Assembly (NCBI RefSeq): GCF_004341505.2
Contig: NZ_SLYP02000003.1
Coordinates: 124,001-188,000, forward strand
DNA length: 64,000 nucleotides
Direction of reading: 5' to 3'
Source: Sphingomonas sp. JUb134
Lineage (GTDB): Bacteria > Pseudomonadota > Alphaproteobacteria > Sphingomonadales > Sphingomonadaceae
The notes beneath the pieces were generated by a model, which worked only from the letters and a program-made list of their open reading frames with translations, had not been told where the DNA came from and searched no databases. Positions 1 through 46,994 of the stretch are shown here, piece after piece. Positions within the stretch are counted from its first letter, which is position 1; each line of letters starts with the position of its first letter. Made by a program: the position numbers and the translations under genes.

Positions 1-2
1 TG

Positions 3-3731: not shown

Positions 3732-3776
3732 CGATCGGCCCACGAGAAGGGCCTGCCCAAGTTTCAGGAGGCACAG

Positions 3777-4715: not shown

Positions 4716-4754
4716 ATCAGCGGCGCGGGCGGTCGGTCAGCACCGGCATAGGAC

Positions 4755-12772: not shown

Positions 12773-12836
12773 GGTCGGTCTGTCTCCAAAGGGTTGAGTC
12801 GACAACTTCACTTTAGAGACCTGCGGGCCGATCATG

Positions 12837-13311: not shown

Positions 13312-13402
13312 ACTGCGATGCTCCCGACTAACTGTGTGAGCACGCGCGGTCACCAGGAAAGCATCGTCATGGCGACCATCGCGGGCTTAAGCCACCGCTC
13401 TA

Positions 13403-23443: not shown

Positions 23444-26400
23444 TCAGAACTGGAAGTTGACGGCTAGCGCATAGGTGCGGCCGAAATAGGCCGTGTACAG
23501 CGGGTCCTGGCGCGTGGTGTCGACCGTCAGCCGGTTGGTCTCGTTGGTGATGTTCGAGACTTCCGCGATCAGCTTGAGGTTTTCGCTGATGTTGTAGGAA
23601 GCCGAAGCGTCCACGAAGATCGAGCTGGCGTTGGACGTCGAGTCCGCATCGACCGAACCGCTCGGCACCGCCGTGAGGAACGACGACCGATAGTTCACGG
23701 TAGAGCGGATGCTGAACTTCTCGTCCTCATAGTACAGCGTGCCGCTGGCGGTTTCCGGTGAGAGACCGACGAGCGGAGCCGTGCGCGTGAGGGTCGGCGA
23801 GATGATGTAGTCGATGTTCGAGCGCACCCGCGTGAAGTTCGCCAGCGCCCCGAAGTTGCTGAGCGCCCCCGGCAGGAAGCGGAACGGCAGCTGTACGTTC
23901 ACTTCCCAGCCGCGCAGCGGACCGCCGGGGGTGTTGTTGCTGCGCTGGACGGTGAACAGGTCGGTCGGCCGCAGCTGCGTTCCCGACAGCAAGCTCAGCG
24001 GCAGGCCGATGTCCTCGAAGGGAACCTGGGTGCTCGTCGTCTGGATATAGGTTTCGATGTTCTTGTAGAAATAGGCGACCGAAATCAGCGATCCCGGAGC
24101 GAAATACCATTCGAGCGAGCCGTCGAAGGTGTTGGCCCGGATGGGGTCCAGGAACGGGTTGCTGAAGGAGGCCGTCTGGATCACCAGATTGGCGGAACCG
24201 GCGGGGATCAACTGGCCATAGGAGGGGCGCGACATCACCCGCGCTGCCGACACGCGCGCGATCAGGTCCGGCGTGATGTTCAGGGCCAGGTTGATCGACG
24301 GCAACCAATCCTCGTAGGAGCGGCTAACCTCGGAAATCACGTACATCGATGGGTAGGTCGAACCGGGGGGCGACGCGGTGGTGATCGGACCATAGGTGTT
24401 CAGCCCGGTGTGGACATAGCGGACACCGGCATCGCCCCGCAGGGTGAACGGCAGGATGTTCTCCGTGTCGAACTTGAACATCAAATAGCCCGAGCCGTAG
24501 GTCTCCTTCACGCCACCATAGGTTCCCTTGGCGCATTCCAGATTGCAGTAGACATAGTCGTCCAGACCGACCGCCGAGCGGAACTTGTCCGGATCGATCG
24601 AAACGAAATCCTGCAGTTGCCCGTCGAGGTTCTTGCCCACCCCGCTCGTCACGAAGGTGAGGCTTGAGAGGGATACGCCAGTCGGCAGTTCGAGCGGTGT
24701 GTTGGTGGCGAGTTGCCGTTCCCGCGCGGTGTAGCTGTTGGTACGATATTGCCCGCCAACCTGCACGGTGAACTGCGACGCAGCCTCCCACTCACCGTTC
24801 AGCTCGAAGGTCTTGCTCGTGATCTTGTTGCGCCGGATGAAGTTCGACAATTGGCCGCGCTGGTCGCCGGTGGGGAGCGGTGGGCCATACTGAAACAGCG
24901 CGGCGTTCGTCGTGTCGATCCCATAGGTGATCTTGGGAATGTCCGGATTGTCGCGGAAGTCGATCGAGAAGTCGCGCGTATCGTTGGAGTCGATCGCCAC
25001 CTGCAGGCGGTCCACGTCGAGCACCGACTGGTTGATCCCCGCCAAGCCGAAAAGCCGGAAGGTGTCCGAAAAGCGATGGTCGAAGTTGAAGTTCACCTGC
25101 TTGTAGGTGGAGGTGAAGCGCTCGTCCTGCATTTCCGAGCGAAGATCGACGCCGTCGAAGAGGCCGTGGACCAGTGAGCCATTCTCGTCGACTTCGATGT
25201 CGCGCACGGAGGTGAGCGGTTGGCCGTTGTTCGAAATGGCGCGACCGAAGGAACGCGCGTCGAACATGGTGTCGAGCCGATGGACCTTGAATCGGGAATA
25301 GAGCCCGTCCAGCGAGAAGTCGGTGTCGTCGGTCGGCTTCCACTGCAGGGTGAGCGACCCTGCCAGGCGCTCCTGGTTCTGGCTGCTCTTCACGGGGCGC
25401 GGCAGGCGCGGCAGGTACACGCCGCCGCCTGGTTTGCCGTTCACCCCCGTACGGCTCATGATGTAGTCGTACGCAGCCGCCGTGCCGGTGCGCGGATTGT
25501 TGGTGCTGCAGTTGTTGGCGTCGGCGCCGATCGGCGTGCCGTTCGGCTGCGTATAGCCGGGCACCGGGCTGGTCGTCGGAACGCCGTTATAGACATAGCC
25601 TACCGGCGTGCAGAACGGGAAGATCATGCCTGCGTTGGCCGTGCCGGCCGGCTGGGCCAGGCCATAGACGGTCGTCGGGACGACATCGACCGCCGAATAG
25701 GCGTATTCGTCGATGTGCCGCTTCGAATAGGCGATGCTTCCAAGCACGCCGAACGTGTCGCCGAACTTCTTTGAGACCAGCGCGGAGAGGCGCGGATCCA
25801 CCTTCTTGCGGATGTCGTTGTAGATGCCGCGGGCGGTGCCCGTCAGGACCAGGTCGTCACCGCGCTGATCGAACGGCTTCGGCGCACGCAGGTCGACCGT
25901 CGCACCCAGCGACCCCTCCTCCACATCGGCAGACAGCGTCTTTCGCACGGAGAGAGCAGAGAAGATCTCGGTCGGGAAAGTCACGAAGTCGAATGAGCGC
26001 CCGCTCGCGACGCCGCCACGAATGTCGCTTCCGCTGACCTGCGAGACGCCTTCCATGCCGTTGATGCGCACACGGGTGAATTGCGCACCGAGACCGCGGA
26101 CGGAGATGTTGCGTCCCTCGCCGCCGTCGCCTCGCGATAGCGCGACGCCCGGGATGCGCTGCATGGACTCGGCCAGGTTCGAGTCCGGGAACTTGCCGAT
26201 GTCCTCGGCAACGATGCTGTCGATTGCCGCGGTCTCGTTGCGCTTCGCGTTGAGGGCGCTGTTGAGCGACGCGCGGAATCCCGTGACGACGATGTCGGTT
26301 TGCGGAGCGCCGTCGGTTGGCTCCTGTGGGGCTTGTGTGGAAGCCGCCGCTTGGTCCGCCTGCCCCGCCTCGGGCACGCCCACATCGCTCGTCACTCCCG

Positions 26401-26503
26401 CGGCAGCGGTTTGGGCCTGCGCCTGGATCGCGGCCGTGAGTAGCGGAATGAGAACACTGGTTGAAAGGAGCAAACGATTCTTGTTGCCGCTGTTGAGCCT
26501 CAC
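23444..26503 (-). CDS. TonB-dependent outer-membrane receptor 1
   Basis: This 1,019-residue receptor has a signal peptide (residues ~1-30, cleaved near QAQAQ), a TonB-box-like DIVVTGFRASLNSAL, a plug domain (residues ~85-210, with ESMQRIPGVALSRGDGGEGRNISVRGLGAQFTRVRING) and a large 22-strand barrel ending in the aromatic YALAVNFQF. The plug pattern and size match the TonB-Xanth-Caul type used for oligosaccharide import in Xanthomonas, Caulobacter and sphingomonads. The GntR regulator lies directly upstream on the same strand, with a TGTATGACA site in the gap. It most likely imports the glycoside handled by the divergent DUF1080 cluster; the substrate is inference. Confidence 0.93.
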   Translation of the reverse strand: MRLNSGNKNRLLLSTSVLIPLLTAAIQAQAQTAAAGVTSDVGVPEAGQADQAAASTQAPQEPTDGAPQTDIVVTGFRASLNSALNAKRNETAAIDSIVAEDIGKFPDSNLAESMQRIPGVALSRGDGGEGRNISVRGLGAQFTRVRINGMEGVSQVSGSDIRGGVASGRSFDFVTFPTEIFSALSVRKTLSADVEEGSLGATVDLRAPKPFDQRGDDLVLTGTARGIYNDIRKKVDPRLSALVSKKFGDTFGVLGSIAYSKRHIDEYAYSAVDVVPTTVYGLAQPAGTANAGMIFPFCTPVGYVYNGVPTTSPVPGYTQPNGTPIGADANNCSTNNPRTGTAAAYDYIMSRTGVNGKPGGGVYLPRLPRPVKSSQNQERLAGSLTLQWKPTDDTDFSLDGLYSRFKVHRLDTMFDARSFGRAISNNGQPLTSVRDIEVDENGSLVHGLFDGVDLRSEMQDERFTSTYKQVNFNFDHRFSDTFRLFGLAGINQSVLDVDRLQVAIDSNDTRDFSIDFRDNPDIPKITYGIDTTNAALFQYGPPLPTGDQRGQLSNFIRRNKITSKTFELNGEWEAASQFTVQVGGQYRTNSYTARERQLATNTPLELPTGVSLSSLTFVTSGVGKNLDGQLQDFVSIDPDKFRSAVGLDDYVYCNLECAKGTYGGVKETYGSGYLMFKFDTENILPFTLRGDAGVRYVHTGLNTYGPITTASPPGSTYPSMYVISEVSRSYEDWLPSINLALNITPDLIARVSAARVMSRPSYGQLIPAGSANLVIQTASFSNPFLDPIRANTFDGSLEWYFAPGSLISVAYFYKNIETYIQTTSTQVPFEDIGLPLSLLSGTQLRPTDLFTVQRSNNTPGGPLRGWEVNVQLPFRFLPGALSNFGALANFTRVRSNIDYIISPTLTRTAPLVGLSPETASGTLYYEDEKFSIRSTVNYRSSFLTAVPSGSVDADSTSNASSIFVDASASYNISENLKLIAEVSNITNETNRLTVDTTRQDPLYTAYFGRTYALAVNFQF

Positions 26504-26707: not shown

Positions 26708-27451
26708 TCAGACGGCGCGACGTGCAAAGGCGCGTCGGCGTTGCGCGGTCTCGGCACGGACGCGTTCGACCGCCTCGGCTTCGTTGAGATGGAGCAGGTG
26801 GTCGATCACGCGCGTCAGATGATCACGCATGGCGAGTCTCGCCTCGGCCGGATTGCGCGCTTCCAGCGCGCGCAGGATGCGACCGTGCTCCTCGAGACGC
26901 TCCTTCGTGCCCAGGCTGCCAGCCTTGCGCAGCACCTCGCGCGCGAGCGGCGACCGGAAGCGCAGGTCCCAAAAGTCGGTCACCGCGGAGATGATGACGG
27001 CGTTGCCCGTCGCCTCGGCGATGCCGATGTGGAAGCGGCGGTCTGCGTCCTCAGCCGCGGCCACGTCCTCCTGCGCCATCTCAGCGACAAGCGCGCGCAG
27101 CTGCGCCAGCTGGGCGTCGTCGATCTCCGTTGCCGCCACCGCCGCGACTTCCCCCTCTACAAGGCGGCGCGCCTCGATGATCTCAAACGCGCCGATGTCA
27201 TATTCCTCGCCTGCCTCGTCGGTCGTCGAGGCGAGGACAAACACGCCCGACCCCTTTCGCGCTTCGACCAGGCCCTGCATCTCCAGCGCGATCATCGCCT
27301 CGCGAATGGTCGGCCGACTCACCCCGAAGCGTTCCGTGAGGTCCCGCTCGGCAGGAAGGCGCGATCCGATGGGGAAGACGCCAGCTCCGATGTCCGCGAT
27401 GATGGCCTGCACGATCTTCCGATACAGCTTGCCGCCATTGTTGCCTGACAT
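26708..27451 (-). CDS. GntR-family regulator with FCD domain (paralogue 1)
   Basis: This 247-residue regulator has an N-terminal winged helix (residues ~5-75, IGSRLPAERDLTERFGVSRPTIREAMIALEMQGLVEARKGSGVFV). A C-terminal FCD ligand domain (~95-235) carries the metal-binding pattern DADRRFHIGIAEATGN...EEHGRILRALEARNP...MRDHL. FCD regulators often sense sugar acids. It is closely alike in layout and motifs to the second GntR protein at 62959-63717. It lies between TonB receptor 1 (same strand) and the divergent DUF1080 operon, so both are likely targets. The ribosome-binding site is weak. Confidence 0.9.
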   Translation of the reverse strand: MSGNNGGKLYRKIVQAIIADIGAGVFPIGSRLPAERDLTERFGVSRPTIREAMIALEMQGLVEARKGSGVFVLASTTDEAGEEYDIGAFEIIEARRLVEGEVAAVAATEIDDAQLAQLRALVAEMAQEDVAAAEDADRRFHIGIAEATGNAVIISAVTDFWDLRFRSPLAREVLRKAGSLGTKERLEEHGRILRALEARNPAEARLAMRDHLTRVIDHLLHLNEAEAVERVRAETAQRRRAFARRAV

Positions 27452-27672: not shown

Positions 27673-29088
27673 ATGAGCGGAAGCGCAATCGCGTCCAGCA
27701 GCAAGTCGCGTCGCGCGGTGGGCAAGGCGGTGCTGGCAGCAACCGTCTGGACGACAGCGATGCTGGTCGGCGTCGCGCCACCCCTCGCCTCCCTCCGCGC
27801 CGAGACTGCCGAGCCGTGGCGCGACATCACGCCCGACGCCAGCCTGAGGGGCTGGCACAGCACGGGCGGGAATGCGCGCTACACGGTGGTCGGGGGCGAA
27901 CTGATCGGCGGGGCCGCGCCGGGCAAGGCGAACAGCTGGCTCGTCTCCGACGCCACCTATGGCGACTATATCATGGAGTTCGACGCCAAGACCGATCCGC
28001 TGCTCAATTCGGGGGTGATGGTGCGCGGCCAGAGCCGGCCCGATTACCGCAACGGCGTCGTGCACGGCTATCAGGCAGAGATCGATCCGTCGGCGCGGGC
28101 ATGGAGCGGCGGTCTGTACGATGAACAGCGCCGCCTGTGGCTCTACAGCCTCGGGCGCAACGATCCCGCCCGCAGGACCTTCCGCTCCGGCGACTGGAAC
28201 CACTACCGGATCGAGGCGATCGGCAACCGTCTGCGGACCTGGGTCAATGGCGTTCCCGCGGCCGACATCGTCGACGACACGGACGCACGCGGCTTCATCG
28301 CCTTCCAGGTGCACGCGATCCCCGAGGAGCAGGCACTGAAAGGGCCGGAAGTGCGCTTCCGCAACATCCGCGTGATCACGCAGGCGCCCGCACGCTATGC
28401 GCTTCCCGAGAACGCGCTGGAACAGCAAGGATGGCTCGCCAATCAGCTGAGCCCGGGCGAGCGCAAGGCGGGCTGGTCGCTGCTGTGGGACGGCCGCAGC
28501 ACCAAGGGCTGGCGCAGCATCAAGGGCGACGGCTTTCCGGCGAAAGGCTGGACGATCGCCGACGGAGCCCTTTCGGTCACCGGAGGTGGCGGCGACCTCG
28601 CTACTGCGACCCAGTACCGCGACTTCGAGTTGTCCGTCGACTATCGGCTCACCCCCGGCGCGAACAGCGGCATCAAATATCGGGTGGCGCCTGGCACCGG
28701 TTCGGTCGGCCTCGAATATCAGCTTCTGGACGATGCACGGCATCCCGATGCCAAGATGGGCCGAGACGGTAATCGCACCCTCGCCGCCCTCTATGACCTG
28801 ATCGCACCGCAGAATCTCCTCGACCCACCGAACCCGGGGAAGCGGATCAACCCGCCGGGCGAGTGGAACCGCGCGGTGATCGTCGTGCGCGGCAACCATG
28901 TCGAGCACTGGCTGAACGGCTTCAAGATGGTCGAGTTCGAACGCGGATCGCCGAAGTTCCGCCAAGCGGTCGCGCAGAGCAAGTTCGCCGGCCAGCAAGG
29001 CTTCGGCACCTGGGCCGAGAGCCCGATCCTTTTGCAGGACCACGGCGACCGGGTGGATTTCCGCTCGATCAAGATCCGTCAATTCTAG
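27673..29088 (+). CDS. DUF1080 (3-keto-glycoside hydrolase/lyase-type) protein, two domains, exported
   Basis: This 471-residue protein has a long positively charged N-terminus and a hydrophobic segment (AVLAATVWTTAMLVGVAPPLA), so it is exported. Two tandem DUF1080 concanavalin-like domains follow. Domain 1 spans ~50-240 (DASLRGWHSTGG, YIMEFDAKTDPLLNSGVMVRG). Domain 2 spans ~265-470 (WDGRSTKGWRSIKG, LSVDYRLTPGANSGIKYR, GEWNRAVIVVRGNHVEHWLNG). DUF1080 enzymes are known to cleave glycosides after oxidation of C3 to a ketone. The start at 27673 is chosen over ATGs at 27589 and 27613 because it follows AGGATGATGG and leaves the operator-like site upstream. It is the first gene of the oxidoreductase cluster. 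Confidence 0.82.
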   Translation: MSGSAIASSSKSRRAVGKAVLAATVWTTAMLVGVAPPLASLRAETAEPWRDITPDASLRGWHSTGGNARYTVVGGELIGGAAPGKANSWLVSDATYGDYIMEFDAKTDPLLNSGVMVRGQSRPDYRNGVVHGYQAEIDPSARAWSGGLYDEQRRLWLYSLGRNDPARRTFRSGDWNHYRIEAIGNRLRTWVNGVPAADIVDDTDARGFIAFQVHAIPEEQALKGPEVRFRNIRVITQAPARYALPENALEQQGWLANQLSPGERKAGWSLLWDGRSTKGWRSIKGDGFPAKGWTIADGALSVTGGGGDLATATQYRDFELSVDYRLTPGANSGIKYRVAPGTGSVGLEYQLLDDARHPDAKMGRDGNRTLAALYDLIAPQNLLDPPNPGKRINPPGEWNRAVIVVRGNHVEHWLNGFKMVEFERGSPKFRQAVAQSKFAGQQGFGTWAESPILLQDHGDRVDFRSIKIRQF

Positions 29089-29104
29089 ATCGGGGGGAAG
29101 AACG

Positions 29105-30415
29105 ATGCTCGACCGTCGAACGATGATCAAGGGTGCCGGAGCCACGGTGGGCGTGGCGATGTCGGCGCGCAGCTATGGGCGGATCAAGGGAGCGAACGAC
29201 CGCGTCCATGTCGCCGTCGTGGGCGTGAACGGCCGCGGACAGGCGCACATGAGCGCGTTTTCCAAACTGCCCAATGTTGCCGTCACCTACCTCGTCGATT
29301 GCGACAGCGCCGTGCTGGCGAAACGCGCCGCGGCCTCTGCCGAGCGCGGTTTCCCGGTGAAGACGGAGCGAGATTACCGACGCCTGCTCGACCGCAAGGT
29401 CGTCGACGTGGTCACCGTCGCAACCCCCGACTTCTCGCACGTGAAGATCGCCACCGACGCCATGGACGCAGGTCACCACGTCTATTGCGAGAAGCCGGTG
29501 GGCATCGCTCCCGCAGAGGGCGAGGCGATGATCGCGGTCCAGAAGCGTACCGGACGCAAGCTGCAGATCGGGAACCAGCAGCGTTCCAGTCCCGAGACGC
29601 GGCAGCTCGCAGAGCGGATCAAGGCCGGCGAACTCGGCCATGTCTATGAGGCGCAAGCATGGTACGGCATCGCGCGCAAGCCGATCGGGCGCGGCCGGCC
29701 AGTGCCGCCCCCTGCCAACCTCGATTGGGACCTGTGGCAAGGTCCGCGGCCGCGCGCGGCGTACCGGTCCAATCTCGTTCCCTACAACTGGCACTGGGTG
29801 TGGCAGTACGGAACGGGAGAGATCTGCAACAACGCCATGCACGAGATCGACGTCGCGCGCTGGCTGATGGGCCTCGCCTATCCCAAGGAGGTGGCTGCGC
29901 GCGGATCGCGCCAGTTCTTCACCAACGATGACTGGGAAATGTACGATGCGATGGCGCTCGACCTCGCCTATGAGGGCGACCGCATGATCCGCTGGGACGG
30001 GCAAAGCGGAAATGCGATGCCGCGCTTCGGCCGCGGTCGCGGCGTGCTGCTGCTCGGTACCAAGGGATCGGCCGTGGTCGACCGGAACGGGTTCGAGATC
30101 TACGATCGCGAAGGCAAGCAGACCCGCGCCGTTAGCGCCGCGGCGACATCAGAGACGACCGGCACCGTGGGCGAAGGCGTGCTGGACGTCTACCACGCGG
30201 GCAATCTCGTGGACGTGATCCGCGGCAAGGCAGCGTCGCTGAACTCGCCCATCGAAGAGGCGCACATCAGCACCACCATCTGTCACCTCGGCAACATGGC
30301 CTATCGCACCAACCGGGCGCTGACCGTGGAGGGAGCGACGGGCCGCCCCTCGAACGCCGAGGCGATGAAGCTGTGGGCGGTCGACTATGAGCCGGGATGG
30401 GAACTGAAGGCCTGA
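29105..30415 (+). CDS. Gfo/Idh/MocA-family oxidoreductase 1 (Tat-type leader)
   Basis: This 436-residue NAD(P)-dependent sugar oxidoreductase has a twin-arginine-like leader (DRRTMIKGAGATVGVAMSA), a Rossmann motif (VAVVGVNGRGQAHM) and the family motif YCEKPVGI. Its C-terminal half includes GTGEICNNAMHEIDVARWLMG, with the conserved histidine of the active site. Members near DUF1080 proteins oxidise or reduce the C3 position of glycosides. It starts 16 bp after the DUF1080 gene with GGGGGGAAG as the ribosome-binding site and is followed 4 bp later by the ApbE gene. The substrate is not determinable here. Confidence 0.88.
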   Translation: MLDRRTMIKGAGATVGVAMSARSYGRIKGANDRVHVAVVGVNGRGQAHMSAFSKLPNVAVTYLVDCDSAVLAKRAAASAERGFPVKTERDYRRLLDRKVVDVVTVATPDFSHVKIATDAMDAGHHVYCEKPVGIAPAEGEAMIAVQKRTGRKLQIGNQQRSSPETRQLAERIKAGELGHVYEAQAWYGIARKPIGRGRPVPPPANLDWDLWQGPRPRAAYRSNLVPYNWHWVWQYGTGEICNNAMHEIDVARWLMGLAYPKEVAARGSRQFFTNDDWEMYDAMALDLAYEGDRMIRWDGQSGNAMPRFGRGRGVLLLGTKGSAVVDRNGFEIYDREGKQTRAVSAAATSETTGTVGEGVLDVYHAGNLVDVIRGKAASLNSPIEEAHISTTICHLGNMAYRTNRALTVEGATGRPSNAEAMKLWAVDYEPGWELKA

Positions 30416-30419
30416 GCCG

Positions 30420-31265
30420 GTGACAATCGAGCCCGGCGTCGTGCGCTTCGCGGCGATGGGAACGCGCGTCGAGCTTCATCGCTTCGACGGCGGCGGGGAT
30501 GACGCGCTCGCCGCCGCCCGGCGCGCGATCGAGGCGGTAGATGACGCGCTCACGATCCACCGCCCCTCGCCCGCCACGGCCCTGAACGAAGCGCTGCTGT
30601 CGGGCCGCTCCGCCCCCGTCGACGACGCGCTGCTGTTCGATGCCTTGGAGGCCGCGGCGGACGGCCATGCCGAGACGGCGGGCTTGTTCGACATCGCAGC
30701 AGACGTCCGCACGGGCACGACATGGACCATGGTCGCTTTCGACCCGCTTTCGCGCCGGGTCAGGGCGGACAGGCCTCTGGCGCTCGACTTCGGCGGATTG
30801 GGCAAGGGGATCGCGCTCGACCGCGCGACGAGGGTGCTCCGCGACGCCGGGGTAAGCTCCGCGCTGCTTACCTTGGGTGAGAGCTCGATTGCGGTGCTGG
30901 GCGAGCACCCGCTGGGCGGAGGCTGGCCGTTCGCGATCCCGCATCCGGAGGATCCGGAGGTCGAGCTGCTGGCGCTGGAGCTTGCCGACAAAGCGCTTTC
31001 AATCTCGGCGACCGTGGGCGCCGGAACACGAGCGCCGGAACGCGCCGCGATCATCCGGCCGCATACCCGCGTCCCCGTTGGTGCGCCGCTTTGTGCGGTG
31101 GCGGTGGAGTCCAACGGCACCCGCGCCGAGATCATGAGCACCGCGCTGGTCGCTGCCGATAAGGATGCGGCGGAACGCCTTCTTCACGGGCGGTCGAGCT
31201 CTCGCTTCCGCTTCGACCTCAGCTCGATCGATTTACCACAGCGCACAAGGACCTTCGCTGCATGA
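30420..31265 (+). CDS. ApbE-type FAD:protein FMN transferase
   Basis: This 281-residue protein begins at a GTG. ApbE enzymes attach FMN to a threonine or serine of target proteins, using FAD and magnesium. Visible landmarks are FAAMGTRVELH near the start, RPLALDFGGLGKGIALDRA (FAD site), SALLTLGESSIAVLG and AEIMSTALVAAD, the equivalent of the usual ADALSTA magnesium site with an Ala-Glu-Ile variant. There is no lipoprotein or signal sequence, so unlike the classical periplasmic form it should act in the cytoplasm. The gene overlaps the next oxidoreductase gene by 4 bp. No clear flavinylated partner protein is encoded in the window. Confidence 0.85.
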   Translation: MTIEPGVVRFAAMGTRVELHRFDGGGDDALAAARRAIEAVDDALTIHRPSPATALNEALLSGRSAPVDDALLFDALEAAADGHAETAGLFDIAADVRTGTTWTMVAFDPLSRRVRADRPLALDFGGLGKGIALDRATRVLRDAGVSSALLTLGESSIAVLGEHPLGGGWPFAIPHPEDPEVELLALELADKALSISATVGAGTRAPERAAIIRPHTRVPVGAPLCAVAVESNGTRAEIMSTALVAADKDAAERLLHGRSSSRFRFDLSSIDLPQRTRTFAA

Positions 31266-32542
31266 CCGACCAAAGCTTTGATTTCACGCGTCGGTCGTTC
31301 CTGGATCGCGTGCTGGCGGCCACCGCCGCCGCGGGAGTCGCAGGTGCCGCACCCTGGGCCGTCTCTGCTGCGAACGCCGCCTCCGGCGTGCCAGCTTTAG
31401 CCGGCGCGGGCGATCGCGTCCGGCTCGGCGTGATCGGCACCGGCGATCGCGGCCGCGCGCTGATGCGCAACATTGCAAAGACCCGCAACTGCACTGTTGC
31501 CGCGGTGTGCGACGTCTATGCTCCCAATTTAGCCAAGGGCCGCGAGATCGCTGGCGCGAGCGTGCCAGCCTTCACCGATCATCGGGCCATGCTCGATGCA
31601 GGTGGGCTGGACGCACTGGTGATCGCCACGCCGCTCGACCTGCATGCGCGCCACACCATTGATGGCTTCGATGCCGGGCTGCACGTCTGGTGCGAGAAGG
31701 CGATGGCCCGGACGATCGCGGACTGCGGAGCGATGGTCAGCAGGTCCAAGGCGGCGGGCAAGGTGCTGCAGATCGGCCATCAGCGCATGTTCCACCCCAC
31801 CTACCTGAATGCCTTGAAGCGTGTGAAGGCGGGCGAGATCGGCACGGTCACCCAGATCCGCGCCAGCTGGCACCGCAACAACAGTTGGCGCCGGCCGGTC
31901 CCCGCCGGAGCCGACGACCGCCACGTCAACTGGCGGCTGTATCGCGACAGCTCCGCGGGGCTGATGACGGAGCTCGCCACGCACCAGCTACAGGTCGGCA
32001 ACTGGTTCCTGGACGGGGTGCCGACCCGCGTCATCGGATCCGGCAGCATCTGCTTCTGGAAGGACGGGCGGGAGGTCTATGACCATGTCGCGCTGATCTA
32101 TGAATACAGCGGCGGGCGGAAGTTCATCTACACCTCGTTGCTGAACAATGCGCGCTACGGCTGCGAGGAGCAGATCCAGGGAAGCAAGGGCACGATCGAG
32201 CCCGAACTCGGCCGCATCTATGCCGAGGTGCCGCCGAAGGTGCTCGCGCTCCAGCGCATGCGCCAGGACGTGGCACGCGGACACAAGCGAACCGTGCCGA
32301 TCGGAGGGGCCACCTGGTTCCCGGAGCTGCCCGTCACCACGCCGGGCGAGTCCCTGGGCTGGGGCGAATATGACGAGACCATGCTCCAGTTCGAGGGCTT
32401 CGGCGAGGCGGTCCGTTCCGGCAAGCCGCTGCCCGGGCTGCTTGCACAGGCCTATCAGGCAAGCGTCGCCTCGCTGCTCGGCGAACAGGCGATGGACCGT
32501 GGCGAGGCCATGCCCTGGCCGACCGGCCTGGTTGACGTCTGA
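31262..32542 (+). CDS. Gfo/Idh/MocA-family oxidoreductase 2 (Tat leader)
   Basis: This 426-residue oxidoreductase has a clear twin-arginine signal (FTRRSFLDRVLAATAAAGVAGAA), so it is probably exported folded to the periplasm. The Rossmann motif is RLGVIGTGDRGRALM. The family EKP motif appears as WCEKAMARTI, with Ala in place of Pro. The catalytic-region histidine lies in GLMTELATHQLQVGNWFLDG. It resembles oxidoreductase 1 but is clearly a separate branch. Its start overlaps the apbE stop (ATGA), indicating tight coupling. A periplasmic dinucleotide-dependent oxidoreductase usually keeps its cofactor tightly bound, as in glucose-fructose oxidoreductase; that is family knowledge, not shown here. 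Confidence 0.88.
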   Translation: MTDQSFDFTRRSFLDRVLAATAAAGVAGAAPWAVSAANAASGVPALAGAGDRVRLGVIGTGDRGRALMRNIAKTRNCTVAAVCDVYAPNLAKGREIAGASVPAFTDHRAMLDAGGLDALVIATPLDLHARHTIDGFDAGLHVWCEKAMARTIADCGAMVSRSKAAGKVLQIGHQRMFHPTYLNALKRVKAGEIGTVTQIRASWHRNNSWRRPVPAGADDRHVNWRLYRDSSAGLMTELATHQLQVGNWFLDGVPTRVIGSGSICFWKDGREVYDHVALIYEYSGGRKFIYTSLLNNARYGCEEQIQGSKGTIEPELGRIYAEVPPKVLALQRMRQDVARGHKRTVPIGGATWFPELPVTTPGESLGWGEYDETMLQFEGFGEAVRSGKPLPGLLAQAYQASVASLLGEQAMDRGEAMPWPTGLVDV

Positions 32543-32591
32543 TCCTGCCGACCCTCTGTTGCCAGACTTCCCCTCTGCCCAAGGACTCGCC

Positions 32592-33749
32592 GTGACCCAC
32601 ACAGACCGCCGCACCCTCCTCGGCCTGGCTGCTGCCGCCGGCCTTTCCGGCCTTGCTGCCGATGCGCTCGCACAGTCCGCCGCCCGCGGCGATGCCCCGA
32701 CGGAGGGGGCGCCCGCGCGCCCGGCGCCGAAGGCCAAGTATCGCGTGCCATTCGGCGTCATCGGCATGGATCATGGCCACATCTACGCCATCACCGACGC
32801 GATGATCCGCGGCGGCGGGGTGCTGACCAGCTTCTACTCGGCCGTGCCGGAACAGGTCGCGACCTTCCGGAAGCGCTACCCCGGTGCGCAGCTCGCCCGT
32901 TCGGAAGACGAGATCATCGAGGACCGGCGGATCAAGCTGGTCTGCAGCGCCGCGGTCCCGGCCCTGCGCGCGCCGCTCGGCATCAAGGCGATGCGCGCCG
33001 GCAAGGACTTCCTCGGCGACAAGGCCGCGGTCGTCACGCTGGAGCAACTCGCCCAAGTGCGCGCCGCGATCAAGGAAACGGGCAAGAAGTTCGGGATCAT
33101 GTATTCCGAACGGCTGGAGGTGCCCGCTGCCGTACAGGCCGGACAGCTGGTGCATGACGGCGCCATTGGTCGCGTCCTCCAGACCGTGAACCTGGCGCCG
33201 CATCGGCTGGGCGCACCGAACCGCCCGAAATGGTTCTGGGACACGGAGCGTAACGGCGGCATCCTGACCGATATCGGCAGCCACCAGGCAGACCAGTTCG
33301 TCTATCTGACCGGCACCAGGCGCGCCGAGGTGATCGCGTCGCAAGTCGGCAACTTCGCCCATCCCGAATACCCGCAGTTCCAGGACTTCGGCGACATGAT
33401 GCTGCACGGCGACGGCGGCACCGGTTATGTCCGTGTCGACTGGTTCACGCCCGACGGCCTGCCGACCTGGGGCGACGGGCGTCTCTTCATCCTGGGCACC
33501 GAAGGCTATATCGAGCTGCGCAAATACGTGGACATCGAGGGGCGGCCCGGCGGCAACCACCTGTTCCTGGCCGACCGCAAGGGCACGCGCTATCTCGACT
33601 GCTCCAAGGTGCCGCTTCCCTTTGGCCCGCAGTTCATCACCGACATCGTCGAGCGCACGTCCGTCGCGCAGGACCAGGAAGGCGCGCTGCTGGCAGCCGA
33701 GCTGGTGCTGACCGCACAGGCAAAGGCAACCCGCGCCACCAGCGCCTGA
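32592..33749 (+). CDS. Gfo/Idh/MocA-family oxidoreductase 3, divergent
   Basis: This 385-residue protein starts at a GTG (preceded by AAGGA) and has a Tat-like leader (DRRTLLGLAAAAGLSGLAADALAQ). Its Rossmann-like start is FGVIGMDHGHIYA, lacking the usual glycine-rich loop spacing, and the EKP motif is replaced by LGDKAAVVT. A later block reads GGILTDIGSHQADQFVYLTG, which keeps the conserved aspartate and histidine. It may therefore bind its cofactor differently from proteins 1 and 2. It lies 49 bp after oxidoreductase 2 and 47 bp before an MFS transporter on the same strand. The substrate is unknown. Confidence 0.82.
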   Translation: MTHTDRRTLLGLAAAAGLSGLAADALAQSAARGDAPTEGAPARPAPKAKYRVPFGVIGMDHGHIYAITDAMIRGGGVLTSFYSAVPEQVATFRKRYPGAQLARSEDEIIEDRRIKLVCSAAVPALRAPLGIKAMRAGKDFLGDKAAVVTLEQLAQVRAAIKETGKKFGIMYSERLEVPAAVQAGQLVHDGAIGRVLQTVNLAPHRLGAPNRPKWFWDTERNGGILTDIGSHQADQFVYLTGTRRAEVIASQVGNFAHPEYPQFQDFGDMMLHGDGGTGYVRVDWFTPDGLPTWGDGRLFILGTEGYIELRKYVDIEGRPGGNHLFLADRKGTRYLDCSKVPLPFGPQFITDIVERTSVAQDQEGALLAAELVLTAQAKATRATSA

Positions 33750-33796
33750 GCACCCGGTCCCGCGGCTTCGCCGGCACTACAGGAAGAAGGCAGAAG

Positions 33797-35113
33797 ATGG
33801 TGTTGCAAAAAGCTCCCGCCCCCGCGCTTGCCCGTCCTGCCACCAACGTCCGCTGGATCATCTGCGCGCTGCTGTTCCTGGCGACCACCATCAACTATGT
33901 GGATCGCCAGATCATCGGCATCCTGAAGCCCACCCTGGAGGTTGAGCTCGGCTGGAGCGAGGTCGACTACGGCAACATCGTGTTCTGGTTCCAGGCTGCC
34001 TACGGACTTGGGCTGCTTGCGTGCGGGCCGGTGATCGACCGTATTGGCACGCGGCTCGGCTATGCGGGCGCGATCGGGCTCTGGAGCCTGGCAGCGATGC
34101 TGCACGCCCTGGTGCGCACGCCGCTCGGCTTTTCCGGCGCGCGGTTCCTCCTTGGCCTAGGCGAGGCCGCGAACTTCCCTGCGGCGATCAAGACGGTCGC
34201 CGAGTGGTTTCCGCGACACGAGCGCGCGCTCGCGGCAGGCATCCTCAATGCGGGTGCCAATGTCGGCGCGATCGCCACGCCGATCGTCGTGCCGCTGCTG
34301 ACCATCCACTTCGGCTGGGAGGCAGCCTTTGTGGTGACCGGGCTCATCGGCTTTCTGTGGCTCGTCGCGTGGCTCCGCTACTATCGCCAGCCTGCCGCGC
34401 ACCCTCGGGTGAGCGCATCCGAGCTCGCCTACATCGAAGCCGACGCCGCCACAGAGCCGCAGGCCCGCGTGCCTTGGCGCCGCCTCTTCGGGCAGCGTCC
34501 GACCTGGGCCTTCGCCATCGCCAAGTTCCTGACCGATCCGGTCTGGTATCTGTTCCTGTTCTGGCTGCCGGACTTTCTGTCGAAGCAATATCAGCTCGAT
34601 CTGAAGACGTTCGGCCCCCCGCTGATCGCAATCTATCTGCTGGCCGACGCGGGCAGTGTCGGCGGCGGCTGGCTGTCGTCCGCACTGATGAAGCGGGGGT
34701 TCGGCGTCAACGCCGCGCGTAAGCTCGCGCTGCTGGGCTGTGCGCTGTGCGTAATCCCGATCCTCTTCGCCACCGGCGCTTCCCATCTTTGGAGCGCCGT
34801 CGCGATCCTGGGTCTCGCCGCGGCGGCGCATCAGGGATGGTCCTCCAACCTCTACGCCGTGGTGTCGGACACGGTGCCGCGCGGCTCTGTCGCATCCGTC
34901 ATGGGGATCGGCGGTGCTGCGGGGGCGATCGGCGGCATGATCATGGCCCAATATGTGGGCCACGCGCTGGAGTCCTTCGGATCCTATTGGCCGGTGTTCG
35001 TCTGGGCGAGCAGCGCCTACCTGATCGCGCTCCTGATCCTCCATCTCCTCCTGCCGCGGATCGGCGAAGCCGAAGCCGGCGCGGAAACCGGGCCCGGTCC
35101 GGCTGTGGTGTGA
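33797..35113 (+). CDS. MFS transporter, hexuronate/anion:cation symporter type (1)
   Basis: This 438-residue protein has about 12 membrane helices. The first-helix motif TINYVDRQIIGILKPTLEVELGW and the loop CGPVIDRIGTRLG are typical of the ACS branch of the major facilitator superfamily, which includes the hexuronate transporter ExuT. The segment ARFLLGLGEAANFPAAIKTVAEWFP is also characteristic. It should carry an acidic sugar or oxidised sugar product across the inner membrane with protons. It is last but one in the DUF1080 operon. A close relative is encoded at 53885-55171. Confidence 0.88.
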   Translation: MVLQKAPAPALARPATNVRWIICALLFLATTINYVDRQIIGILKPTLEVELGWSEVDYGNIVFWFQAAYGLGLLACGPVIDRIGTRLGYAGAIGLWSLAAMLHALVRTPLGFSGARFLLGLGEAANFPAAIKTVAEWFPRHERALAAGILNAGANVGAIATPIVVPLLTIHFGWEAAFVVTGLIGFLWLVAWLRYYRQPAAHPRVSASELAYIEADAATEPQARVPWRRLFGQRPTWAFAIAKFLTDPVWYLFLFWLPDFLSKQYQLDLKTFGPPLIAIYLLADAGSVGGGWLSSALMKRGFGVNAARKLALLGCALCVIPILFATGASHLWSAVAILGLAAAAHQGWSSNLYAVVSDTVPRGSVASVMGIGGAAGAIGGMIMAQYVGHALESFGSYWPVFVWASSAYLIALLILHLLLPRIGEAEAGAETGPGPAVV

Positions 35114-35127
35114 GCCGGGGCGGGGAT

Positions 35128-36309
35128 GTGACCGGCGAATGTCGCGGACCGGGAATGCTCCTGTGCGCCGGCTATACCGCCCTTGCCTATCTGGCGGTCG
35201 GGCTTCCCCTCGCAGTGCTGCCGGGCTGGGCGCTGGATCTGGGGTTCGGCCCGGTGGTCGGGGGGCTCCTTGTCTCGGCCCAATATCTGGCGACGGTGGC
35301 CAGCCGCCTGCTGGTGGGGCCGATGATCGATCGCTCAGGTCCCCGCCGAGGTGTCGTGCTGGGGTTCCTGTGCTGCGCAGGCGCGGGCATCGCCACCGTG
35401 GTAGCCCTGCAGTTCCCCTCACCCGCCGCGGCACTGGCCGTGATGCTGGCCGGCCGGCTTCTGCTGGGAGCAGGCGAAAGCCTGGTCAGCACCAGCGCGA
35501 TGCTATGGGGGATCGCCCGCATCGGTGCGCCACAGGCCGCGCGGATGATCTCCTGGAACGGCATCGCCACCTATGGAGCGATCGCGGCAGGTGCCCCGCT
35601 GGGCGTAGTCCTCAGCGAACGCGGCGGTCTGGTGCTGCTCGGTGCGGCCCTGACGTCGATCGGCATCGCCGGCTGCGCACTCGCGCTGGTCCAGCCGTCG
35701 ATGCGCGCCCGAGAGGCGGTTCGCATGCCAATACGGAGCGTTTTCGCGCGCGTGTTTCCCTTCGGGGCAGTGCTCGCCCTGGCGACGATCGGGTTCGGAG
35801 TGGTGACCGCATTCGTCACCCTCTTCTTTGCGGCGGCCGGATGGCCGGATGGCTGGATGGCCCTTTCCGCCTTTGGCGGCGGTTTTGTCGCCTCCCGGAT
35901 GCTTTTTGCCGCACGGCTCGAAAGCCGCAGCGGGCTGCGGAGCGCGTCCCGCTTCCTCGCGGTCGAAGCGGCGGGCCTGGCGCTTCTGTACCTGTCCGCC
36001 AGCCCCCAGATGGCCGTTGCCGGTGCCGCGATCACAGGGCTCGGCTTTGCGATGATCTTCCCCGCGCTGGGCGTCATCGTGATCGAACAGGTGCCGCCGC
36101 AAAGTCGCGGAACGGCGATCGGCACCTTTGCATTGTTCATCGATGCCGCGCTGTGTGCAGCAGGTCCGCTCGCGGGCGCGATCGCCGCACGCTCGAACTA
36201 CGCCCTTCCCTTCGCCGCAGCGGCCTTTTGCGCGCTCGTCGGCCTGTGGGTCACCATAGGCCTTCAAACTGCCGGGCGGAGGCACGAAGCAGAGCGGGTG
36301 ACGTGGTGA
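35128..36309 (+). CDS. MFS transporter (2), efflux-like
   Basis: This ~393-residue membrane protein has around 12 helices and an MFS loop motif (VGPMIDRSGPRRGVVLG). It belongs to a different branch from its neighbour, resembling sugar-efflux or drug-efflux permeases (VSARLLLGAGESLVSTSAMLWG-like helix 4 region). Three starts are possible: GTG 35110 (overlapping the previous stop), GTG 35128 with a G-rich site, and ATG 35155. I prefer 35128. It closes the DUF1080 operon. The transported compound cannot be told. Confidence 0.78.
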   Translation: MTGECRGPGMLLCAGYTALAYLAVGLPLAVLPGWALDLGFGPVVGGLLVSAQYLATVASRLLVGPMIDRSGPRRGVVLGFLCCAGAGIATVVALQFPSPAAALAVMLAGRLLLGAGESLVSTSAMLWGIARIGAPQAARMISWNGIATYGAIAAGAPLGVVLSERGGLVLLGAALTSIGIAGCALALVQPSMRAREAVRMPIRSVFARVFPFGAVLALATIGFGVVTAFVTLFFAAAGWPDGWMALSAFGGGFVASRMLFAARLESRSGLRSASRFLAVEAAGLALLYLSASPQMAVAGAAITGLGFAMIFPALGVIVIEQVPPQSRGTAIGTFALFIDAALCAAGPLAGAIAARSNYALPFAAAAFCALVGLWVTIGLQTAGRRHEAERVTW

Positions 36310-36908: not shown

Positions 36909-37053
36909 GGGAACATTCCAAGCACACAGCAGCTCCGATGTGAATCCCCCGCGCGGCCCCACCCATGTTTTGACCACGAATGGCACTTTACCCGGGTGAA
37001 GTGCCACGAACGGCAGTCAGCATGCCGTCGTTCACGCACCTTGCATCCCCTTC

Positions 37054-37067: not shown

Positions 37068-37287
37068 AAAGCGCATGCCCATCAAGAGGCAGGGGAGAGG
37101 CCGGTGCCGCAATCAACCGCCCAAGCTTGTGATCGTCGGATCCGGTCCGCCGGGGTGGCCGGCACGCGCGCGCCCGTTGCAGCACGCCCGTCCGAAGCGT
37201 ACCGCTGTCTCCACGCGCTCGGCGCCCCCTCGTTCGCCCGCCTTTCCGCTGCGCACCGCGCCGCCTGACGTTCCAAGAGGAGCCACC

Positions 37288-38130
37288 ATGTTCGAACGCA
37301 CCTATTACGCCACCCACCCCGACATGATGGAGTGCGTCTCCAACGAGGAACTGCGCGACCGCTATCTCATCCAGGGGCTGTTCCGCGAGGGTGAGTGCGT
37401 GCTCAACTATACCCATGCCGACCGCTTCGTGATCGGCGGGGTCGCCCCAGGCGCCGAGCCCGTGAAGCTGCCGGCTCAGACGGAGCCCGCGTCTGCCGCC
37501 GGCCATCCCTTCCTGGAGCGCCGCGAGCTCGCGATCGTCAACATCGGCAAGACCGAAGGCATCGTCACCGTCGACGGCGAGACCTTCACGCTCGGCAACA
37601 AGGACTGCCTCTACGTCACGATGGGGGCAAAGGAGGTCGTGTTCGCCGGTCAGGGCGCACGCTATTATCTGGCGTCCTGCCCCGCCCACAAGGAATTCCA
37701 GACCCGCAAGCTCGGCATCGCCGACGCGAAGGCGCTGGAGCGCGGCAGCCTGGAGGAATCCAACGAGCGCACCATCTATCAGCTCGTCATCCCCGGCGTG
37801 TGCGACAGCGCGCAGCTGGTGATGGGCCTGACGGTGCTCAAGCCTGGCAGCGTGTGGAACACCATGCCCCCGCACATCCATGAGCGCCGCAGCGAGATCT
37901 ATTGCTACTTCGAACTCGACAATCCCGACACCGATCGCGTCATGCACTTCATGGGTGAGGGCGAAGCGATGCGCCACATCGTCGCCGCCAACGAAGAAGT
38001 CGTGATCTCGCCGCCCTGGTCGATCCACATGGGCGCGGGCACCAAGGCCTATGCCTTCATCTGGGCGATGGCGGGCGAGAACCAGGACTATACCGACATG
38101 AACGTGCTGGACATCTGCCAGCTGGCGTAA
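37288..38130 (+). CDS. kduI: 4-deoxy-L-threo-5-hexosulose-uronate ketol-isomerase
   Basis: This 280-residue cupin-type isomerase converts 5-keto-4-deoxyuronate, derived from unsaturated galacturonate made by pectate lyases, to 2,5-diketo-3-deoxygluconate. Zinc ligands lie in [15 protein letters not shown] (two His and Glu), with a further His late in the protein ([15 protein letters not shown]). N- and C-terminal landmarks ([26 protein letters not shown] and [13 protein letters not shown]) match the family over its full length. The start at 37288 has AAGAGGAG upstream; in-frame codons before it give low-complexity sequence. It is the first gene of the kduI-kduD-kdgK-esterase operon. Confidence 0.96.
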
Positions 38131-38139: not shown

Positions 38140-38268
38140 CTCCCCTCCCTGGAAGGGAGGGGCTGGGGGTGGGTTCCGAGCCGCCAGGCTCGGCTCTCTC
38201 CGCCAGCCAAGAGCGCGCCGCTTCGCGACGCGCACCCACCCCCGACCCCTCCCTTCCAGGGAGGGGAG
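38140..38268. repeat. Long inverted repeat between kduI and kduD
   Basis: Two 34-bp arms (38140-38173 and 38235-38268) are inverted copies with only two mismatches, and each arm contains its own smaller palindrome (CCCTCCCTGGAAGGGAGGG type). The spacer is 61 bp. Read through as mRNA it would form a very stable hairpin. The kduD ribosome-binding site (GGGGAGGAG, 38263-38271) overlaps the right arm. Confidence 0.9.
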
Positions 38269-38277
38269 GAGTTGCAA

Positions 38278-39033
38278 ATGACGAATTTCTTCGATCTTTC
38301 CGGCAAGGTGGCGGTCGTCACCGGCGCCAACACCGGTATCGGCCAGGCGATCGCCCTCGCGCTTGCAGAAGCCGGCGCCGATATCGCTGCGGTCGGCCGC
38401 ACCCCGGCCGAGGACACCGTCGCCAAGGCGCGCGCGCTCGGCCGCAGGGCAGAGATCGTCTCGGCGGATCTTTCCACGATCGAGCCGCTCGGGCGCGTGA
38501 TCGAGGAGACGGTGGCAAAGCTCGGCGGCCTCCATATCCTCGTCAACAATGCCGGCATCATCCGCCGCGCCGACGCGGTCGACTTCACCGAGGAGGATTG
38601 GGACGCGGTGATCGACACCAACCTCAAGTCGGTGTTCTTCCTCTGCCAGGCGGCCGGCCGCCACATGATCGCCAATGGCGGCGGCAAGGTCATCAACATC
38701 GCCTCGATGCTGACCTTCCAGGGCGGCATTCGCGTGCCGAGCTATACCGCATCCAAGTCGGGCATCGGTGGCCTCACCAAGCTGCTCGCCAACGAATGGG
38801 CGGCCAAGGGCATCAACGTGAACGCGATCGCACCGGGCTACATCGCGACCAACAACACCGCCGCACTCCAGGCGGACGAAGCCCGCAACAAGTCGATCCT
38901 CGATCGCATCCCTGCGGGACGTTGGGGCGATCCTTCCGATCTCGGCGGCGCCGCCGTGTTCCTCGCGAGCCGAGCCGCCGACTACGTCCAGGGCCACATC
39001 CTCGCCGTCGACGGCGGATGGCTGGCTCGCTGA
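38278..39033 (+). CDS. kduD: 2-deoxy-D-gluconate 3-dehydrogenase (2,5-diketo-3-deoxygluconate reductase)
   Basis: This 251-residue short-chain dehydrogenase reduces 2,5-diketo-3-deoxygluconate to KDG with NAD(P)H, directly after KduI. It shows the cofactor motif VVTGANTGIGQAIA, the NNAG motif (ILVNNAGIIRR), and the catalytic Ser (INIASM) with Tyr and Lys in SYTASKSG. The C-terminus VQGHILAVDGGWLAR is typical of KduD. The ATG is preceded by GGGGAGGAG inside the inverted-repeat arm. The stop overlaps the kdgK start (TGATG), so the two are translationally coupled. Confidence 0.95.
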   Translation: MTNFFDLSGKVAVVTGANTGIGQAIALALAEAGADIAAVGRTPAEDTVAKARALGRRAEIVSADLSTIEPLGRVIEETVAKLGGLHILVNNAGIIRRADAVDFTEEDWDAVIDTNLKSVFFLCQAAGRHMIANGGGKVINIASMLTFQGGIRVPSYTASKSGIGGLTKLLANEWAAKGINVNAIAPGYIATNNTAALQADEARNKSILDRIPAGRWGDPSDLGGAAVFLASRAADYVQGHILAVDGGWLAR

Positions 39034-46882: not shown

Positions 46883-46994
46883 TCCAGCTGCCGCCTTCCG
46901 CCTCCTGCCCTAGCCGTCGACCGCACACCCAATGCCCGCCACCGGCCAAACAGACGGGGACCACCCCGCACCTCCGCCGGCCCGAGGAGAGAGA

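Follow-up and report, generated by a model that had tools for sequence, protein, structure and literature searches.

The seven-gene operon described here, from Sphingomonas sp. JUb134, is best read as encoding a periplasmic oxidation-first pathway, in which a glycoside would be oxidized and then cleaved by a 3-keto-glycoside hydrolase. Within this best-supported general reading, we regard it as an even call that the substrates are hexuronic acid glycosides, most likely D-glucuronides. Oxidation-first glycoside cleavage has been recognized only recently, and few such pathways are known. If a cassette carried by 62 of 295 genomes in a single genus indeed acts on a uronide, its probable substrate, the range of this chemistry would broaden, and the substrate class is amenable to testing.

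The operon lies in a 64-kb window (the whole stretch of DNA analyzed) of a 4.1-Mb genome whose named relatives are Sphingomonas, and its tightly packed genes all occupy the plus strand. A protein with two DUF1080 domains (DUF1080x2; 27673..29088) is followed after 16 nt by the Gfo/Idh/MocA enzyme GfoA (29105..30415) and, 4 nt further on, by an ApbE-like protein (30420..31265), which overlaps a second Gfo enzyme, GfoB (31262..32542), by 4 nt. A third, GfoC (32577..33749), begins 34 nt downstream; the transporter MFS1 (33797..35113) comes 47 nt later and overlaps the transporter MFS2 (35110..36309) by 4 nt. Divergent from these genes, on the minus strand, are an FCD-type GntR regulator (GntR1; 26708..27451; Pfam GntR and FCD domains) and a TonB-dependent receptor (TBDT1; 23444..26503; above the cut-off of TIGR01782, TonB-Xanth-Caul). 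Both transporters match MFS_1; the nearest model to MFS1 is TIGR00893 (D-galactonate transporter), below its cut-off, and MFS2 exceeds that of NF003477. Every gene named in an initial annotation of this DNA was found at or very near the position it had been given, with Pfam in agreement for each, and spacing and strands bear out its description of a tight operon with the regulator and receptor genes transcribed divergently. The window is a dense polysaccharide-gene region. A scan of promoters and terminators, not used as evidence, returned 0 promoter-like and 8 terminator-like signals against 4.9 expected for the latter. A candidate operator, TGGT-n2/3-ACCA, occurs upstream of 9 of 53 DUF1080x2 genes, compared with 1.2% of random window segments, but was dropped because it is absent from the window itself.

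The core of the operon is a widespread sphingomonad cassette. Across the 295 genomes of the genus, GfoB occurs in 63, DUF1080x2 in 63 and the ApbE-like protein in 62, and gene order is kept over most of 54 named loci, far beyond chance. These loci hold DUF1080x2 in 52 cases, GfoA in 52, GfoB in 53 and GfoC in 46. A TBDT1 orthologue adjoins the cassette in 43/54, a GntR1 orthologue (at least 60% identity) is present in 30/54 and MFS1 in 16/54; MFS2 occurs in only 1/54, and so is not core. Since the genomes are related, counts of the cassette and its linkages do not represent independent events. At E 1e-60, DUF1080x2 was found in 2 of 296 genomes of an order-wide sample, its own included, and GfoB in 1 of 367 of a class-wide sample, its own only, in samples that hold few close kin and at a threshold that would miss distant relatives. 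No publication on the cassette or on the ApbE–Gfo pair was found among the matches listed in a search of titles and abstract openings, with subscription literature outside its scope.

The hydrolytic step would be the work of DUF1080x2. As judged from sequence, this protein belongs to the 3-keto-disaccharide hydrolase family PF06439 (280.4 bits against a cut-off of 26.8, in two stretches, each domain alone above the cut-off), and cleavage of 3-keto-glycosides is its predicted activity. Its closest solved chain is 4jqt (E 1e-127), and the two matches uphold the earlier view of a two-domain DUF1080 protein of a 3-keto-glycoside family. Its leader appears signal-like by eye; a pattern search found a twin-arginine motif in 1 of 52 orthologues.

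The oxidative step would fall to the Gfo enzymes, all three of which possess a Rossmann domain, a C-terminal domain and the Lys/His pair of the Gfo/Idh/MocA family. Pfam recognizes Gfo domains in all three; in GfoC, of the PDB 3u3x/2p2s group, the Rossmann domain scores 21.8 bits, under its 24-bit cut-off. K130 and H246 of GfoA are invariant in 53/53 aligned sequences, K146 and H241 of GfoB in 54/54, and the corresponding Lys and His of GfoC in 47/47; these we take to be the catalytic residues. The best NCBIfam model for GfoA is BT_2158_fam, ‘glycoside 3-dehydrogenase’ (NF058561), whose equivalog cut-off of 750 bits neither GfoA (137.2 bits) nor GfoB (56.9 bits) reaches. Tat-like leaders had been noted on all three oxidoreductases, and the motif recurs in the N-terminal region of every orthologue scored: 52/52 for GfoA, 53/53 for GfoB and 46/46 for GfoC. 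The same pattern appears in 0/54 ApbE-like proteins, 0/16 MFS1, 0/38 GntR1 and 5/43 TBDT1. The leaders are called by motif pattern rather than by a signal-peptide predictor, and export itself is predicted.

In an alternative that we find quite unlikely, one Tat-exported Gfo protein, either GfoA or GfoB, would act by itself as a glycosidase that depends on NAD, like those of GH109 and GH188, and DUF1080x2 would be an accessory or binding protein. Enzymes of that kind oxidize, eliminate, hydrate and reduce within one active site. The GfoA profile does match the GH109 chains 2ixa (E 1.2e-14) and 6t2b (E 4.9e-14), but its best PDB matches, well ahead of these, are 8tdf (E 3.9e-36) and 8tdh (E 1.1e-35), deposited as ‘Dehydrogenase’ and ‘Predicted dehydrogenases and related proteins’. 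GfoB is nearest to generic inositol, DgpA and GFOR-type enzymes; its structure model, built from an alignment of close relatives only, has a mean pLDDT of 59.6, too poor for use. Gene content cuts both ways: locus L069, with full flanks, holds the ApbE-like protein, GfoB and GfoC without DUF1080x2 or GfoA, and genome G337 is without DUF1080x2, whereas DUF1080x2 is also present in 60 of the 62 genomes with the ApbE-like protein and GfoB. The best NCBIfam model for GfoA is BT_2158_fam, ‘glycoside 3-dehydrogenase’ (NF058561), whose equivalog cut-off of 750 bits neither GfoA (137.2 bits) nor GfoB (56.9 bits) reaches.

In the oxidation-first pathway that we favor, TBDT1 would carry a glucuronide across the outer membrane, and a Tat-exported Gfo enzyme, most likely GfoA, would oxidize C3 using tightly bound NAD(P). 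DUF1080x2 would then cleave the 3-keto-glycoside, and NAD(P)H bound on GfoA, GfoB or GfoC would re-reduce the freed 3-keto-uronate, such that the net reaction would be hydrolysis. Import of glucuronate via the MFS1 permease, and its use by UxaC, UxuB, UxuA and a KDG kinase under an ExuR-like regulator, would complete the route. A periplasmic pathway fed by its own receptor had been suggested from the outset: the Tat-like leaders and the receptor beside the cassette in most loci favor that proposal, while the FMN transferase role assigned within it is not supported and the likely substrate has shifted.

Several known systems offer partial precedents. One is the Bacteroides oxidative glycoside pathway of the BT2157/BT2158 type, which pairs a PF06439 hydrolase with a Gfo 3-dehydrogenase; there, too, a DUF1080 protein lies beside Gfo enzymes and BT2157 is a 3-ketotrehalose hydrolase, as given in the accessible text of PMC9007349. 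GfoA is nearest to BT_2158_fam and to 8tdf/8tdh, but scores far under the cut-off of the former, and the Sphingomonas cassette goes beyond the Bacteroides type with two further Tat-leader Gfo enzymes, the ApbE-like protein and glucuronate genes nearby. The chemistry also has a precedent by name in the Gfo-family chain deposited as glucuronide-3-dehydrogenase P2B11 (PDB 8tdi), yet this chain matches GfoB weakly (E 1.6e-11), no better than generic Gfo enzymes do, and is not among the matches listed for GfoA. Zymomonas glucose–fructose oxidoreductase (GFOR), which is Tat-exported and NADP-bound, resembles GfoB (E about 1e-17) but differs in substrate, and we know of no ApbE partner for it. According to its title, Halbig 1999 ties GFOR export to a structural signal that arises when the cofactor binds.

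The glucuronate assignment comes from the company that the cassette keeps. In 33 of 62 genomes, UxuA (mannonate dehydratase, PF03786) is found no more than 10 kb from the ApbE-like gene, where about 0.4 would be expected by chance at a rough 1.2 copies per genome. Three layouts occur: UxuA is downstream on the same strand in 3 of these genomes, downstream on the other strand in 6 and upstream in 24. In L035 and L065 it immediately follows GfoC and precedes MFS1, in the same orientation. At least one of UxaC, UxuA and UxuB is found in 30 of the 54 named loci, UxaC beside the cassette in 19, and 9 of the 16 loci with MFS1 also hold UxuA. The NCBIfam model that fits GntR1 best is ExuR, with the Uxu operon regulator second; neither cut-off is reached. 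On the other side of the ledger, a UxuA match at E 1e-80 is absent in 17 of the 62 cassette genomes. The window's own operon is without UxuA: the nearest is 35 kb from the ApbE-like gene, a short way beyond the window's end (contig position 189417), where it follows a UxuB-like fructuronate reductase (61490..62956, +; best model, below cut-off) and the glucuronate isomerase UxaC (60078..61493, +; equivalog, above cut-off). These two genes are 24 kb off, among xylan-type genes, and the host genome has two UxuA matches, one running to a contig end. Closer to the operon are KduI (5-dehydro-4-deoxy-D-glucuronate isomerase; 37273..38130, +) and KduD (2-dehydro-3-deoxy-D-gluconate 5-dehydrogenase; 38275..39033, +), both equivalogs above cut-off, and a PfkB sugar kinase, a probable KDG kinase (39132..40046, +; NCBIfam models below cut-off). 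KduI and KduD each occur in 0/54 loci at the thresholds used, and are neighbors specific to this window. D-glucuronate catabolism is present and linked to the cassette, UxuB by a sub-cut-off model only.

The recurring neighbors are genes of D-glucuronate catabolism, which makes a glucuronide the more probable substrate by comparison with plant glucosides at large; the oxidative glycoside pathway first envisaged is still the best-supported reading, with its likely substrate narrowed to this class. One could instead suppose that the same pathway serves neutral glycosides such as lactose, raffinose or phenolic glucosides, with uronate genes nearby because sphingomonads pile up plant-polysaccharide genes. 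This we consider doubtful. The polysaccharide-rich window fits such a supposition, as do the 24 of 54 named loci whose flanks, several of them incomplete, are without UxaC, UxuA or UxuB. Caulobacter offers a parallel, since CCNA_01705, with a single DUF1080 domain and a putative signal peptide, matters there for lactose and is proposed to cleave the oxidized glycoside (accessible text of PMC9007349). Like the Sphingomonas system, the lactose 3-dehydrogenase LacABC with CCNA_01705 is alphaproteobacterial, putatively periplasmic and equipped with a DUF1080 protein. However, the Sphingomonas oxidizer would be of the Gfo family and its context is uronate, not lactose. No LacA-type or LacABC domain turned up when about 37 distinct proteins of the window were scanned, a set that leaves aside positions 1-6157 and some other ORFs, nor any GMC-type dehydrogenase domain among the part of the window genes scanned. 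UxuA near the cassette in about half of its genomes, and within the operon in close relatives, together with a regulator whose best model is ExuR, argues for the glucuronide. Taken at the level of sequence, the comparison supports the gene set, its order, the Tat motifs, the invariant Gfo residues and glucuronate linkage in about half of the genomes. For GfoC relatives on Rhizobium plasmids, the match covered 12% of the query, and the two regions viewed had no sugar-specific neighbors.

To our knowledge, there is no settled account of how Gfo enzymes that depend on NAD(P) can function in the periplasm, where free NAD(P) is absent, and a strictly linked, catalytically altered ApbE provides a concrete candidate protein for this question. 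The protein keeps the entire ApbE fold and matches PF02424 at 97.7 bits; the MGT start motif, the glycine–lysine helix motif and the catalytic-triad Ser are retained. Its alignment, however, places Ala in the column of the general-base His, which belongs to an H-x-x-D-P motif—His257 is the general base of Vibrio ApbE in the accessible text of PMC12052999—and Glu in the metal-site Asp column. The motif H-x-x-[DN]-P-x-[ST]-G is found in 0 of 120 listed relatives (of 361 matches), whereas, on our count, 20 of 23 further members of the ApbE family from this order carry H-x-x-[DN]-P at those positions. Nor is an export signal, lipoprotein or other, evident in the protein or in the 120 relatives scored: the MGT core motif lies at or before residue 29 in all 120, at 13 in 67, and among the 8 whose leaders are longest, the highest 12-residue hydropathy mean is 1.16. 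Such a signal is typical, not universal, for ApbE FMN transferases.

These features make it very unlikely that we are dealing with an ordinary FMN transferase, one flavinylating an unseen partner that passes Gfo electrons from the periplasm into respiration, even with fold and several motifs shared. Scanning 26 proteins of the window and 298 from the 8 largest neighbor clusters gave no strict D-x-x-[ST]-G-A-[ST] target, and a flavinylated carrier encoded in the cassette was dropped for this reason; a loose [ST]GA[ST] occurs in 9/43 TBDT1, in 1/20 of the MFS cluster and in the window's MFS1. The ‘ApbE flavin transferase’ of the initial annotation is not supported as a working FMN transferase. 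A canonical FMN-transferase role is improbable for this protein, and the label ‘FAD:protein FMN transferase’, carried by the NCBI-named members listed, probably misnames the family.

The probable client of the ApbE-like protein is instead GfoB, which it would assist either in the cytosol, by loading the cofactor or aiding maturation, or as a companion exported alongside it. More tentatively, and with the balance somewhat against it, we suggest that the ApbE fold, having lost its flavin-transfer base, was recruited as a dedicated partner of Tat-exported GfoB that may bind a dinucleotide and act in cytosolic cofactor loading and proofreading before export, or as a hitchhiker re-oxidizing GfoB in the periplasm. 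If true, this partnership would give the ApbE fold a new function, set within an oxidative pathway for glucuronides; we know of no earlier dedicated maturation factor for an NAD(P)-dependent Tat substrate. Mirror-tree correlation for the two proteins is 0.79, against 0.42-0.93 for other pairs, and does not single them out. By gene content, they behave like a unit that is inherited together: 62 of 63 GfoB genomes also hold the ApbE-like protein, on the same contig and strand in 61, with alignments no more than 70 bp apart in 60 of those 61, and both are missing together from G332 and G343, which retain DUF1080x2 and GfoA.

The cassette is genuine and conserved, and most of it belongs to a kind already known; what is new here is the uronide direction and an altered ApbE protein paired with GfoB. 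The gene list of the initial annotation was correct, every gene being recovered by ORF calling and Pfam scans. On the + strand lie DUF1080x2, encoding a protein with two PF06439 domains (27673–29088), the Gfo/Idh/MocA oxidoreductase gene GfoA (29105–30415), the ApbE-like gene (30420–31265), two further oxidoreductase genes of that family, GfoB (31262–32542) and GfoC (32577–33749), and the transporter genes MFS1 (33797–35113) and MFS2 (35110–36309), spaced in that order by 16, 4, −4, 34, 47 and −4 nt. On the opposite strand, Pfam identifies the GntR/FCD regulator GntR1 (26708–27451) and the TonB receptor TBDT1 (23444–26503). The window is positions 124001–188000 of contig C3 in a 4.1-Mb genome whose named relatives are Sphingomonas.

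An ApbE-like alignment, run in a single scan against named genomes, yielded 54 named loci, titled as Sphingomonadales genera with the sole exception of a record titled Microvirga sp. SRT01; orthologues were called there at per-gene identity thresholds of 40–60%. ApbE-like is present in all 54 by construction, GfoB in 53, DUF1080x2 and GfoA in 52 each, GfoC in 46 and TBDT1 in 43, and because of these counts we regard the five enzyme genes and the receptor as the core. Counts of 16 for MFS1 and one for MFS2 likewise mark the transporters as local additions. GntR1 accompanies 30 loci and a further regulator, GntR2, 16. Across a genus sample of 295 genomes, GfoB and DUF1080x2 each occur in 63 and ApbE-like in 62.

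ApbE-like and GfoB behave as one unit. GfoB is present in 62/62 ApbE-like genomes, and in the sole genome with GfoB but no ApbE-like match (G545), the GfoB is only partial and lies where a contig begins. The two share contig and strand in 61 genomes, with no more than 70 bp between alignments in 60 of these and 341 bp in the other (G507); in G338 they fall on separate contigs. Departures from the full set are modular: ApbE-like and GfoB are both absent from G332 and G343, where DUF1080x2 and GfoA are retained (in G343 also GfoC), G337 has GfoA, ApbE-like, GfoB and GfoC without DUF1080x2, locus L069 has ApbE-like, GfoB and GfoC without DUF1080x2 and GfoA, and G364, which lacks the pair, carries a GfoA-like gene and a DUF1080 domain. 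ApbE-like therefore tracks GfoB, not DUF1080. Mirror-tree correlations lent the link no added support.

For the ApbE-like protein we consider FMN transfer less likely than a role in cofactor loading or maturation, or than export as a hitchhiker of GfoB; a novel role of this kind is still somewhat doubtful. There are precedents: to go by the title of Halbig's 1999 work, Tat export of NADP-containing GFOR reportedly requires a structural signal that arises when the cofactor binds, Tat cargo is served by maturation proteins for redox enzymes (PMC6708511), and PaoABC reportedly uses hitchhiking for its export (PMC4273604). Gfo, MocA and DUF1080 are absent from the main text of an ApbE survey (PMC8238504). 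Separately, the ApbE-like genes of five loci (L078, L079, L080, L083 and L085, at about 10300–10600) carry an aligned in-frame insertion of ~90–100 residues after the LFD motif, and split matches suggest the same in L081 and L082. Inverted repeats (28 nt, 93% complementary) occur within the L079 insertion, which therefore resembles a repeat element that inserted in frame into a loop.

Among the remaining enzymes, DUF1080x2 matches the solved two-domain chain 4jqt over its length (E 1e-127); in the more distant genomes G364 and G552 its second domain alone aligned. The GfoA profile ranks chains 8tdf (E 3.9e-36) and 8tdh (1.1e-35) top, DgpA next and GH109 chains far lower; GH109 and GH188 are NAD-dependent glycosidases. 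Against the curated glycoside 3-dehydrogenase model GfoA scored 137 bits, short of the 750 cut-off. For the GfoB profile, matches of about equal strength are found to the types of inositol dehydrogenase, DgpA and glucose-fructose oxidoreductase, and GfoC groups with 3u3x and 2p2s. Lys and His columns, which we take to be the catalytic positions of the Gfo family, are invariant in all aligned orthologues, window included (53 GfoA, 54 GfoB and 47 GfoC sequences).

By pattern, an N-terminal Tat motif occurs in every orthologue of GfoA (52/52), GfoB (53/53) and GfoC (46/46), compared with 0/54 for ApbE-like, 0/16 for MFS1, 0/38 for GntR1, 1/52 for DUF1080x2 and 5/43 for TBDT1. As the DUF1080x2 leader also appears signal-like by eye, the enzyme set, the ApbE-like protein excepted, is probably periplasmic. 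Elsewhere in this genome, 5295–7489 of L128 (C3:46000–62000) contains a second, single-domain DUF1080 gene, with a Gfo-like gene directly before it (31% identity to GfoA in the match) and a TonB-receptor-like ORF after; no ApbE-like match was found within that stretch.

As to substrate, one recurrent neighbor cluster of the cassette is the D-mannonate dehydratase UxuA (PF03786, E 2.5e-115), which in L035 and L065 sits between GfoC and MFS1 on the same strand. It lies within 10 kb of ApbE-like in 33/62 genomes of the genus (by strand, 24 upstream, 6 downstream on the other strand and 3 downstream on the same strand), against a chance expectation of ~0.4 genomes, a figure that assumes roughly 1.2 copies in 4.1 Mb and is uncorrected for relatedness. 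UxuA is found in 45/62 cassette genomes versus 106/233 others (Fisher p 0.00017, relatedness likewise uncorrected). UxuA acts in the breakdown of D-glucuronate and not in the branch for galacturonate, so a D-glucuronide is our best guess from these gene neighborhoods. Six loci from Sphingopyxis, Porphyrobacter and Sphingobium (L036, L037, L039, L073, L077 and L086) have UxaC nearby instead of UxuA, four of them with a UxuB-like gene. In the window, UxaC and UxuB lie 24 kb downstream among GH43 and GH3 genes, with a UxuA copy just beyond its end, and ExuR is the top-scoring model for GntR1, under cut-off. Across the 54 named loci UxuA appears in 24, UxaC in 19 and UxuB-like and KdgK in 4 each; at the per-gene thresholds KduI and KduD were each found beside the cassette in 0/54. 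Against the uronide reading, no UxaC, UxuA or UxuB gene was seen in 24/54 named loci, and 17/62 genomes are without a UxuA match at E 1e-80.

In the pathway we propose, substrate would enter through the receptor, a Tat-exported Gfo protein with bound cofactor would oxidize C3, and DUF1080x2 would perform the cleavage; back-reduction would occur on the bound cofactor, so that free NAD(P) would be unneeded, before import and catabolism via UxaC–UxuB–UxuA. The case for and against this uronide pathway as stated is, in our judgment, evenly balanced.

The Withers group is said to have described a broad-specificity Bacteroides pathway. Other reports connect DUF1080 with lactose in Caulobacter (PMC9007349) and, in Thermogutta, with xanthan, a glucuronic acid-containing polymer, where the proposed cut is in the glucan backbone, not at the glucuronosyl bond (PMC5673643). 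Elimination of 3-keto-glycosides is described for Agrobacterium (PMC10628242), and a tool paper includes a DUF1080-family example (PMC9765024). Among the 8 papers found on DUF1080, PF06439 or the new family name, no title or abstract opening concerns this cassette.

Elsewhere in the window, a 216-residue ORF of coding-like composition (36357–37007, − strand), with no match in Pfam or NCBIfam, separates the operon from kduI, and a 35-nt inverted repeat (94% complementary, 59 nt between arms; 38140–38268) stands immediately upstream of kduD. An ORF of 1304 residues (46932–50846) within the esterase/receptor/GH43 region has a single recognized domain, laminin-G/concanavalin-like, at residues 103–266, the remainder being without Pfam match. 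A FadL/TodX-type outer membrane protein gene (22023–23012, − strand) is split into adjacent ORFs (22023–22634 and 22644–23012) matching separate parts of the family profile; either the gene has been disrupted or the sequence contains an error. A mobile-element patch at 9712–14550 consists of three consecutive transposase genes, two of IS110 type and one of DDE type, and is adjoined by a PQQ-dependent dehydrogenase gene (6337–8799).
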